From NCBI RefSeq assembly GCF_963678975.1, contig NC_089274.1, positions 4,080,001 to 4,144,000 on the forward strand: 64,000 nt of DNA, read 5' to 3'. Both the position numbers and the translations under genes were made by a program. Below, in pieces: positions 4,401-10,400 of the stretch. Under the pieces are notes generated by a model, which searched no databases, was not told the origin of the DNA, and was given only the letters and a program-made list of their open reading frames with translations. Positions within the stretch are counted from its first letter, which is position 1. Each line of letters begins with the position of its first letter. The DNA is from Dysidea avara. Its lineage: Eukaryota > Porifera > Demospongiae > Dictyoceratida > Dysideidae.

Positions 4401-7400
4401 CACGAGTGTGAGATTGGCACCATTAAATGGCCGTGGCTTTGTGATAATGGTGTGTAGTGAGCTGGGACTTCACAGAGAGCTCGCCAATAGTGTTCTCAGT
4501 CAATTTGGAGTAATTTGAGGGCCATGGAGGGCCATGGAGAGCCCAAACTTGGCCTCTGGACTCCAATCGTCTTCTTACTCCATTTTATACCCGTATATTA
4601 ATACCACCGTCCACCCCCACCCTCCCACCCTTAGTACTACCATGTGTGATATTACTACCCGCTCGAAAAAAGCTGCTCAAAACAGGGCAAATTTTGGGTA
4701 TCAGAAATGTATACACCCACTCAGTGGTAGCTAGTGAACAGATGAACAGTTGGTGCAAATTTTGTTTGCACAGCTGTAGGCACTGGGAAGTTATTACACA
4801 ATGATTCCTTAAAATCGCCATATCTCCTAACAAAGCTTTGTGCGTCGAAGCCTTGTTTTGTCAAATTCAGTCACATATAATGTTGACCTTTTAGCATTTT
4901 TGTTTGTTTCTTTGTTTTCACAATTGCTGGCACTAGCCCAATCAGCACACCATTGTGGCAAGCAACAACACCTCTTTATCCACAAGGTGTTAAACTGCAG
5001 ACTGCATTTGTGTACCCTTGATCTGTTGATTACTGTTGAAAGGATTGAAAAGGAGCTGCATCATAATCACCTCACCTATTGGTAATTTTGATACCTTATA
5101 ATAGTCGCATTTGTTTGATATGGAGATCTGTTATTGTGGTATACTTTTTACTTCAACCTCACCACATTGGCTGTTGTGTAAATGGCTTAATCCCCTCACC
5201 ACCAAATCTGTAGAGGCTCTAATCTATTGCTTCTTAACTGCTATAACTTATGAACCAATAATATATCAAAATACTCACTATAGAACAAGGAATTCAATTA
5301 CTGAGTTGCAACTTATCAGTCTAGTAATAAACATCACTATCCTGTTGACAGTAAGCATTGTCTCAGAACAGTCTGGTTTTCAGGCATTTCACCAAGTGCG
5401 CATGCGCATATACTCTAATTTGAGGCATACTAAAGTAGCAATGCGCCAATATAATCTGTCTCCTTACTTTTAGTAGTGCCAATATCACTGTAAAGATTGT
5501 CTACAATGATTATTATCAACCATCAAATGATGACATCTTTCCCGTAATCATGTTTGAGGGACCAGTTATACCTCTTTGCCTTCACATAAGGACGTGATCA
5601 TTACATGATAAGCATAGGGGTTACTATAATGTTCGACAAAAGATACAGAGCGACTAGAAAATGATGCTACAGGCATTTATAACCGATTCCACCACATGGC
5701 GATTGTGGCAGTGGCTGGTTAATTAGCTGTACTACCGTAAGAGACGAAAGTTTGGAGGGACTAAAGTTTGGCGAATCAGGCCCTTAAACATTTTGGCGAA
5801 AGAAAGTTTGGCGAATTCATCTCTATAGCGGCGCGCGCCAACACATATATCGTATACTCACCTTACCTTGGAAAATATAGTATACGCTATGTCTAGCGGG
5901 TAACGTGGTAACACGTGCGGTAGAAGTGACTTGTCTCGTGAAATGGCTATACGCTACTACTTTGTTGTTGATTCAAAGGTGCATGGTTACCACGTGTATA
6001 AAGAAATATGGCCAAACCCTATCATTGGAGAAGAATTACCCTGCGAAAGAGAGATTGGAAATACGCACGATCCGTCAGCAGTGGCTGTCAAGAAGCTTAT
6101 AACAGGAGAGAGGAAGATTGTCGGCCATGTACCAAGAAGAATATCTCCATTGTCTTCGTCGTTCATAAGGGGTGGTGGGAACATAAAATGTGTTGTTACT
6201 GGAACGAAGCGTTACTCATCGGATTTACCTCAAGGAGGATTGGAGGTGCCATGTCGGTATACTTTCAGTGTTAATGATGCCAAAAAGTGTGATCAACTGC
6301 ATAAGCGCATTATTGACTCTTTGTCGAGAACATGCCATGATGAAAGCCCATCAACAGATGTGGTCGAAGCAATAGAGACAAGAATAGATGAGATTGTAGA
6401 CACCAATGAACCGACAAGCTCTGGAGAGAAAACTACCTTAATCAAAATTGAGCCTGAAGATACATCTAATACTTCAGCAATGTCTAATAGAATATGTCAA
6501 GATTCTCATGTTGAAGAGGTTATTGTTCCAGAAGAAGTTGTCTGCTCTCCTCCAAAAAAACAAGCCCGCTTTGATGAGGAGCGACTATTGATGGGAGAAG
6601 AATTGAGTGATCGTGAAATAAATTTTGCGCAGCAACTTCTAAAGCAGCAGTTTGGTCATATCAATGGGCTTTGTTCCACTTTGTTACAAGATAAAGATAG
6701 GCCTTATAATCTTACCACCACTACGCTATCAAACAGGATACAGATCATCTATTGTCCAAGTCGCAGGCATTGGATAGTGGCAACCACTATAAACTCAAAT
6801 TGTGATACTGTTAAAGTCTACGATTCCATGTTCCGCTATCTTGATAAGAATTCCCTGATCACTGTTGAGAAATGCTTTACATACAATGGTGAGGTGCCAA
6901 CAGTGAAGATGATGCAATGCAGGAAACAGGAAGGTACTAAAGATTGCGGTGTTTATGCTGTAGCCTTTGGTGTAGCTCTAGCAATGGGCCATAACCCAAG
7001 CAGGCAAAATCTGAAGCAAGATGTGATGAGATCACACCTTGTAACCTGCTTTAAAAATGAGCACTTTTCTTTGTTCCCATGCAAATAACTGAACAATGTA
7101 TTTCATATACTTTTAACTTTATTTGTAATCACCATTGTTGATAATATATTACACTAATTTAACAAACAGATTAATAGCTCATGAAAGTGGGATTATAGTT
7201 TTGTTACTAACATACATCTAAAATGTCCTTCATAAATTTGAAGCCATTACTGACAATGTCTGGTTTTCTAGCGATGTATTCATGCGCAGCTATCATCCAT
7301 GTTGCTCCCAATGGCTTTAGTATACTCAGACGTAAATCAATAGGACTTCTTTCTTCCTCTCCTTTCAACTGGTTACACACCTGCTTCGAGTACCATTCTT

Positions 7401-10400
7401 GAAATCTACCTCGTAAAAATTCTTTGACAGGCTTGTTGATACTTATATCAAGGGGCTGCAGACGATCAGTACAATTAGCAGGGATCAAAAGAACGTTGAT
7501 GTTGTTGTTATCTAAGGTGGTAAGAATGTTGGTTGTACACTGGCCTTTAAAATTGTCAAATAGAACTAGAGCAGGATAGTCACAGGATAGCTTCAGCTCT
7601 TGTCTTTTTTTCTGCACATATGGTAAGATTATCTTATGTATGTAATCCTTCATTGTAGACTCGTTACACCAATGGTTATCAGTGTAAGTAACATCCCAAC
7701 CACTTGGAAAGCTTACTTTTGGGATACAGCGACGTGTTTTGCCCTCATAAACTAACTGAGGAGGTAGGAACTCGCCACTCATAGTGCCAGCTAAAACAGC
7801 GGTAATTTGCCTCTTATCATCTTTCCCTGCTATCTCGACTCTTCTAGCTCCCTCCTCCTCCATGGTCCATGATGAAGTGGGCACATATTGAATTGCTGTT
7901 TGGTCCCAATTAATCACTAGGGCAGGAGGAATTTCATCCATGGACACAACATTTTGTATATCCAACAGGAATCCTTCTTTTATGCGATCAAAATTCTCAA
8001 CGTCAACTTTGGCCTTGCTACTGACTCTTCTTTTCACCATCCCCATACGATGTAGCAAGCTCTTTGCCCATGATTTGGTTAGCTCAATACCTGTTTCATT
8101 GACACGAATCCCATTTTCATCATATGCCAACAAGTTTGCATCTATACTTTTTATGACTCCTTCTGCTGCAGCTATTGCAACAACAGTGTTAACTACCGAC
8201 CCCTTCTTTCGCAAGAACTTCAAATATTCTTTCACTTGTTGATCGATGTCTTCACCAACCAGCAGTGGTCTTCCCATTTTTTTATTAGGTAGCTCCTTTA
8301 GTTCATCAGCATTATCACATCGCACCCGTTTTTTCAGGTTTTCTCTATAGGCATCTTTAAACCTCCTTACCGAGGTTTCCTTTAACTCGGGTAGGTCTGG
8401 AAAAGTCGCCTTGTAATAACGCAGTGCGTTAGTAGTTCCATGCTCACTAGCTCTCTTTCCAATTTGGAACTTCTGGGCTGGAGTTAAATGGAGATACGGC
8501 CCTCTTGAACTGCCTTGAGAGGCGATCGCTGAACGAACCGCGACATTGGCAGAAACAATAGTTAACCGAGGAATCCCAACTTCCTTATTCAAGGGTCCAT
8601 CTGGACGAGGTAATTGATCATCAATAGTTTTGAGCTTCTCTTTAAGCTTAAAGTAATTCAGAATAGACATCGCTGACACCTCAACTAGCCGGCTAACACG
8701 TGTTCACACCCGCAGCTGGCACTTGGCTAAAATTGGCGAATTAAAGTTTGGCGAATTTTACGAATTCGCCAAATTCGCCAAACTTTAGTCCCTCCAAACT
8801 TTCGTCTCTTACAGTATATTTAGGTGTGTAGTATTCAGATTTATTGTACTAATTCATGATGCATTATAATTATTCCAATCTTTATGTCATGCTTTAGAAC
8901 CAAACCATTGGAGCACATGCAAACTGTACAGTAGAATATAGACACAGTGACCTCACGTATTTGTGTACTCTTTATCTCCACAGATTGTACCTGGACATGA
9001 CAACTTACCATGTGGTGTTTGGTCCATGGCAGAAACAGCTGGTTGCTTTGGGCATATGGCTTGTCCTTATGGGTACCTATTTTATGATTCATCCTATTTT
9101 TAAGGTTGTCTGTTGAAGATTATGTAACTCCAAATGTTATTTGGTATAATTCCATCAGGTTTGGGTGTACCTACACAAGACCATGGGCAGACCAGCAGAT
9201 GTTCTCTTTGTAATACTCTGTTGCCTCTACAATATTGTAGCACACACTTCAGTCATCTTGCTGATATTGTACTTTGACTTTGACACTGGACCATCCCTCT
9301 TTCTGTCCATTGAGCAGGTACAGTATCACCTCAGTATACTTTAACCTATTGCATGTATGCATGGGAGTACACGTGCTGTTTAGAGTGCATTTAATTTTGA
9401 CCTGTCCCTAATTTTCGAATTGGTATAATGGTACCTTTCCACAATCTAGAAAAATTTTGTTCCATAATCATACAGTATAGTAGGGACCACAAAGGTTTGG
9501 GCGTGACACATGGAAAACATTACGCAAACACCAGCCTCACTTTTCCCTGATGACAAGGCAGTAAAGCCCAAACAAGCCTTCAGATCGACCCAAATGCTTT
9601 CAACAAGTTGCTATGGAATTTTTTTGAAATTATTTAAATCAAAATTTTCTACTGACTGACTGACTGAGTAACTGATGCCTTCAGACAAGCATAACTCAAT
9701 AACGGCTAAGGCTACAGGCTTGATTTTTTCACTGTTTGGCATCACTTCAGCAGGACACGTGTAGTACATACAATGCCTTCATACTGTAGTACGTACAATT
9801 CCTTCTTCATGGACTTACCAGTGTCCTAACAAGCTGGAGTAGTGCAGGATGTTAAATCTTAAATCACAGCAAAAATACAACAAGAAGTGTTATATCCCTA
9901 CTGTGCATTTCCATTATGGTATCTTGGGGACATAACATTCTTATTGTTTTAAGATTTAATATCGTGCACTACTCCAGCTTGTTTCAGTACTTTTTATCAA
10001 TGTGCTATAGTCCCTACTCTAGTTGAAAATTCTTGTGTACTTGTATTATAGTAATACATTGACCCTCAGATATTTTTCTTTATGTATATAATTACGTGCG
10101 AAGATAAATTTTTAAAATGATTTTGGTGTTGATTTCTCTAGACGAGATTCACTCTTAAATGTCATTCATTTGTGAGGGAGAATGCCTACAAGGTTTTGTG
10201 GCCATGGGATGAAGATGATGAAACAGGCAAGGATGTGAAAGCAGTAATATTAATTCAAAGTTGTTCCACAGGTCCACCTGTGTGGTATGAAGGACAAATG
10301 TCTCCAAAGATTGGCTCATTATCTCAGTACATGTACTTCACATTTGCCCCAACTCTTGTGTATCGTGACCACTACCCAAGGTGTGACTAACTCTGTACGT

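Follow-up and report, generated by a model that had tools for sequence, protein, structure and literature searches.

A 64,000-nucleotide stretch of the genome of the sponge Dysidea avara (NC_089274.1, positions 4,080,001 to 4,144,000 of the forward strand; here called the window) contains a pogo-type cut-and-paste transposon of 3080 bp (positions 5735 to 8814 of the window, unstranded), and our data support that a gene for a HIRAN and Ulp1-like (C48) protein is an integral part of it. Across divergent families of this one genome, the transposase and HIRAN-C48 genes are inherited together, enclosed by the same ends. A pogo element with an integral HIRAN-Ulp1 gene had been proposed from the letters of the window alone (the sequence-only reading); that interpretation stands, partly supported and stronger than such a reading by itself allowed.

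The two genes were confirmed as intact, intronless and facing each other. Open reading frame 1 (ORF1; 5943 to 7088, plus strand) encodes the HIRAN-linker-C48 protein of 381 amino acids, and ORF2 (7207 to 8670, minus strand) a pogo-type transposase of 487 amino acids; the intergenic stretch between them (7089 to 7206, unstranded) has AATAAA for the minus-strand gene at 7118 to 7123. Relatives of both proteins were analysed as the 120 listed for each. DDE_1 was detected in the window transposase at 54.7 bits (Pfam cut-off, 22) and in all 43 members of the transposase alignment. The catalytic aspartates D256, D372 and D408 form a DD35D set, and the spacing of 35 was found in 115 of the 116 relatives with D372 and D408 both aligned; the available part of PMC7325037 lists DD35D for pogo groups 33-40. 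With the TA target and terminal inverted repeats described below, this bore out the assignment to a pogo-type DDE_1 transposase. The helix-turn-helix domain HTH_Tnp_Tc5 was matched in 11 of the 43 members, the window copy not among them (Pfam), and CENP-B_N in 0 of 43 (Pfam, E ≤ 0.01). A search of PDB chains with the transposase profile gave nothing at E ≤ 0.1, and the transposase was placed by fold. Its N-terminal motif MSILNYFK (8647 to 8670, minus strand) is conserved as M[SA][IL]L[KN]YF[KR], with Tyr in 93 and Phe in 89 of 98 relatives where aligned. This start resembles a PCNA box (PIP box) minus its Gln, a resemblance only; binding to PCNA has been reported for the pogo transposase of the fly (PMC5371812, available part). 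The canonical box Qxx[ILM]xx[FY][FY] was present in none of the 120 transposases and none of the 120 partners listed.

The perfect 37-bp ends noted earlier (5740 to 5776 and 8773 to 8809) were verified as inverted repeats, and 100 dinucleotide-preserving shuffles of the window gave no match to them at ≤3 mismatches. Comparison with same-family copies, in which TA followed by CCGTA is kept at the ends, placed the true ends further out, at TA followed by CCGTAAGAGACG..., that is, at 5735 and 8814. The left terminal inverted repeat accordingly covers 5735 to 5776 (plus strand; perfect across 5740 to 5776) and the right one 8773 to 8814 (minus strand), with 1 mismatch within the outer 5 bases, where the window copy reads CTGTA instead of CCGTA. 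TA does flank the element on both sides, as the sequence-only reading had it, but not at 5738-5739 and 8810-8811: because same-family copies keep CCGTA within the element and differ outside TA, the duplicated TA is that at 5733-5734 (left) and 8815-8816 (right). Subterminal repeats of TTTGGCGAA occur on the left at 5767 to 5815 (plus strand; starts 5767, 5792 and 5807) and on the right at 8747 to 8782 (minus strand; 8747 on plus, 8765 and 8774 on minus) and are possible binding sites of the transposase. A single-strand DNA hairpin (z −7.2) was predicted across 8725 to 8814, in the right subterminal region. Elsewhere in the window, a tandem array (38382 to 38717; period 93, 3.6 copies, 99% matches) has a unit containing TGTACCGTAGG, which resembles the TACCGTA ends of this transposon group; a short non-autonomous relative is the possible origin of the array.

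Pairing of the two genes was assessed across the genome. These searches score best candidates only, so the counts are lower bounds, and they are confined to the one transposase lineage; the same genome may also contain pogo lineages that lack HIRAN-C48, non-autonomous copies devoid of the protease gene and a host HIRAN-C48 gene. ORF1 had 128 matches at 108 places, and the transposase 100 matches at 88 places. At 62 of the 88 transposase places ORF1 was found within 2.5 kb, tail to tail in all 62, with a gap of 110 to 1003 bp (median 162.5). Twenty of the other 26 were inspected about 1.7 kb onward, and all 20 hold opposite-strand HIRAN-C48 pieces, some broken or partial. HIRAN-C48 sequence therefore adjoins all of the 82 transposases tested (of 88 found), and copies of the element lacking the protease gene, which would have spoken against the sequence-only reading, were not seen among them. 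Conversely, 8 of the 46 ORF1 places outside the 62 have the transposase in longer loci, and 35 of the remaining 38 have opposite-strand transposase pieces within 1.3 kb, which brings transposase sequence to 105 of 108 HIRAN-C48 places; the 3 without it have internal stops. On contig C10, six HIRAN-C48 places form two clusters (15.93 to 15.97 and 16.53 to 16.63 Mb), two of the six with equal score, perhaps from local duplication.

Shared ends enclose the gene pair both in near-identical copies and in other families. Six near-identical copies were found besides that of the window, five of them with the perfect 37-bp repeat, TA followed by CCGTA at both ends and differing flanks; the sixth (L002) runs into N before its right end and is identical to the window copy until there. 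Over 2,851 bp, four copies differ from the window copy by 0, 3, 3 and 3 bases, and L007 by 7, with one in-frame stop in its transposase. Both genes are open in 5 copies, the window copy included, and the near-identity of the copies indicates recent movement of the family. Seven loci were taken with roughly 4 kb of flank either way; in L031-L034 and L036 both genes lie between inverted repeats that have TACCGTA ends, and the repeats of L035 and L037 are short or unclear. Terminal inverted repeats were also found at L009, L010, L011, L018, L019, L023 and L027-L029, the outermost bases sometimes being CTGTA or TCGTA; no clear terminal pair was detected at L008, L012 and L017. Altogether, TACCGTA-type repeats (or repeats 1 to 2 bases off) enclose both genes in eight families beyond that of the window. 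One longer relative of about 4.2 kb (L036:1174-5355) is bounded by TACCGTA and contains a small transposase fragment in inverted orientation.

The two proteins have also diverged together. In the 24 of 37 loci with long open frames in both genes (13 were dropped), representing 11 families, their distances correlate with r 0.883, a value reached in 0 of 5000 permutations. Such correlated divergence and the strict pairing fit a direct partnership, in which ORF1 would process or protect the transposase (maturation, stabilisation or autoregulation). C48 proteases normally cut after the Gly-Gly of a ubiquitin-like protein, and a Gly-Gly site conserved among the transposases was not defined, GG occurring anywhere in 96 of 120 with positions uncompared; we regard this role as very improbable. 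Ratios of non-synonymous to synonymous change (dN/dS) were 0.12 for HIRAN, 0.078 for C48, 0.31 for the linker and 0.124 for the transposase in the pair L012-L019, and 0.136 for ORF1 in L012-L020; L017-L019 and L012-L020 agree with L012-L019 but are not independent of it. Both genes are thus under purifying selection in one informative lineage pair. Gene capture by transposons is common, and ORF1 might be a captured host gene travelling as a passenger without a role. Pairing at 105 of 108 places, a dN/dS of about 0.1 in one lineage pair and catalytic residues retained in the 24 long open copies, in all save one D294N, disfavour this, and it was set aside as having the slightest of chances.

ORF1 joins a HIRAN domain (5943 to 6326, plus strand; about residues 1-128) to a C48/Ulp1 catalytic domain (6570 to 7085, plus strand; residues 210-381). 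Peptidase_C48 scored 25.5 bits in the window copy (Pfam cut-off, 20.7). HIRAN was matched at E ≤ 0.01 in 33 of the 40 ORF1 alignment members (Pfam) and exceeded the Pfam cut-off in 2 of 5 relatives scanned (P0021, 25.1; P0039, 29.3). Both folds were predicted with good confidence, the C-terminal domain adopting that of C48/Ulp1, so that a prediction showing neither fold was looked for and not found, and the earlier description of a HIRAN-like domain joined to a Ulp1-like core holds. So does its complete His-Asp-Gln-Cys set, which lies within 6768 to 6947 (plus strand): H276 (6768-6770), D294 (6822-6824), Q329 (6927-6929) and C335 (6945-6947). Gaps excluded, these residues are present in 113/116, 112/114, 110/111 and 110/110 of the listed relatives, respectively. 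In 5 of 40 ORF1 proteins there were weak matches to YopJ-type acetyltransferase, and an ElaD/SseL-like match occurred once; we take these to reflect distant kin inside the same protease clan. With residues 1-130, VIA-align listed the HLTF HIRAN as the sole family, a result that excludes nothing. In the available part of PMC11237066, the HLTF HIRAN is described as binding single-stranded DNA at the 3'-OH end, its function being disrupted by N90A-N91A; Y72 and Y93 are named as stacking residues in that of PMC4666394. Equivalents of HLTF N91, D94 and H110 are kept in ORF1 relatives (N40, 112/114; D43, 108/114; H62, 118/118), and the alignment of HLTF with ORF1 is too gapped for placing Y72. The HIRAN of ORF1 is accordingly predicted, from these residues but not from Y93, to bind 3'-ended single-stranded DNA.

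The linker between the domains holds IKIE, a SUMO-conjugation consensus (6441 to 6452, plus strand; residues 167-170), EEVIVPEE, a hydrophobic and acidic patch like a SUMO-interaction motif (SIM) and weak taken alone (6513 to 6536, plus strand; residues 191-198), and SPPKKQAR, a nuclear-localisation-like signal (6546 to 6569, plus strand; residues 202-209). Across the linkers of 49 non-redundant proteins, the strict SIM [VI]DL[TS] occurred in 11 (0.5 in shuffles), psi-K-x-E in 17 (6.4) and the nuclear-localisation-like signal in 43 (7.7), values reached in 0 of 1000 shuffles in each case. Enrichment of SUMO-interaction and SUMO-conjugation motifs argues against cleavage of ubiquitin or NEDD8 instead of SUMO by the C48 domain, for example at PCNA, and so does the lack of a canonical PIP box among the 120 transposases and 120 partners listed; we consider that substrate choice distinctly unlikely. 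SUMO-dependent silencing of transposons is established, and the nuclear signal, the SUMO motifs of the linker and the many copies in the genome would also suit a protease acting mainly on SUMO-dependent chromatin silencing, with HIRAN holding the protein on element DNA. Against such counter-silencing, the HLTF HIRAN binds 3' ends, not a sequence, in the available part of PMC11237066, and it seems to us a rather unlikely main role.

As a whole, the best explanation, to which we give a probability of about 0.5, is a two-gene pogo-type element in which a HIRAN-guided SUMO-type protease aids transposition. Transposition inherently generates 3'-OH ends; because the HLTF HIRAN binds such ends and transposition makes them, ORF1 is proposed to go to transposition ends. 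Its own nuclear signal would import the protein, whose linker could hold SUMO; HIRAN would bind free 3' DNA ends from excision or insertion, or ends at replication forks, and would thereby bring the SUMO-type protease to the transposition site. There the protease might strip SUMO from host repair, fork or silencing factors at the break, and SUMO removal might favour completed transposition or gap repair. More tentatively, and with the odds somewhat against it, the transposition system may need both proteins, the second being a DNA-end-guided SUMO protease: HIRAN would recognise the 3' ends that the transposase creates, and the protease would edit the SUMO state of host proteins precisely there. 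Such a system would mirror HLTF, whose HIRAN brings a ubiquitin ligase where that of ORF1 would bring a SUMO protease.

Several observations weigh against this explanation. HIRAN scored 21.3 bits in the window copy, under the Pfam cut-off of 24.7; its profile matched none of the PDB chains by sequence at E ≤ 10, so that HIRAN identity was assigned by fold, and sequence alignment to HLTF was weak (hhalign E 0.0018, local). The equivalent of the stacking tyrosine Y93 is mostly His in ORF1 relatives (76/114). Structural relatives of the C48 domain include NEDD8 and ubiquitin proteases at similar Z, and SUMO as the substrate is therefore unproven. The strict SIM is confined to 11 of the 49 proteins and missing from the window ORF1, a broader hydrophobic SIM pattern was not enriched (24 observed, 26.5 in shuffles), and the linker shuffles take no account of shared ancestry. 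Useful dN/dS values came from the single lineage pair L012-L019; near-identical pairs were uninformative (ORF1 0.26 in L012-L017, 0.59 in L032-L033 and 0.81 in L019-L020), and in L009-L010, L009-L013 and L003-L007 all ORF1 changes were non-synonymous.

Relatives of ORF1 numbered 444 in the protein database at E ≤ 1; a profile search gave 1,077 (E ≤ 1e-5). Between the 120 ORF1 and 120 transposase relatives listed, 7 agree in the length of the longest contig, versus a mean of 0.73 (largest 2) once the lengths are shifted by 1 to 15, which suggests, but does not prove, the same gene pairing in other genomes. None of 52 pattern-matching stretches in prokaryotic genome contigs and none of 39 in viral contigs was confirmed as a carrier.

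Known systems share parts of this arrangement. Members of the pogo superfamily (Tigger, Passer, pogoR, Fot and Lemi; PMC7325037 and PMC7386202, available parts) have DDE_1, DD35D, a TA target, short inverted repeats and a Tc5-type helix-turn-helix, the last seen here in the 11 relatives mentioned above; unlike them, the present element has a second, HIRAN-C48 gene. The available text of PMC7325037 lacks the words Ulp1, HIRAN and protease, that of PMC7386202 lacks protease and second ORF, and PMC9587614 gave no match for Ulp1, protease or pogo. No pogo element with HIRAN or Ulp1 was seen in titles or abstract openings among the matches listed from the open-licence literature, which leaves Repbase uncovered, and a description of pogo with HIRAN-C48 elsewhere in the literature is possible. 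CryptonF and CryptonS of oomycetes encode a C48 (Ulp1) peptidase besides their recombinase, but this is a tyrosine recombinase rather than a DDE enzyme, and HIRAN is unmentioned in the available part of PMC3212892. In Ginger1 and Mutator-like elements a Ulp1 protease domain is associated with a DDE transposase; in Ginger1, unlike here, it is fused to the C-terminus of an integrase-like transposase, again with HIRAN unmentioned, and a repair role for transposon Ulp1 was previously proposed (PMC2836005, available part). A Crypton or Ginger with C48 was rejected, since the transposase belongs to DDE_1 and the protease has a gene of its own. Compared with HLTF and Rad5, ORF1 is without helicase or RING, and a protease partner replaces the ligase. 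With SENP5 and Ulp1 it shares about 15% identity, and it has HIRAN in place of the host targeting regions.

Two further intact ORFs were observed in the window, both on the minus strand. That at 24002 to 24505 (167 amino acids) contains a domain of the Bcl-2 family (Pfam E 4.7e-15) and is likely a host apoptosis regulator; that at 47766 to 48566 (266 amino acids) is aquaporin-like by eye and had no Pfam match at E ≤ 0.1.

No agreed explanation exists for the Ulp1 genes that recur in several unrelated transposons. In this element the protease is fused to a type of domain known to bind DNA 3' ends, so that the reason for which transposons encode SUMO proteases can be approached in a system of few parts: transposase, HIRAN-C48 protein and donor. 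It might also bear on the choice of transposon tools, as an element of this kind may be poorly mobile when supplied with its transposase alone.

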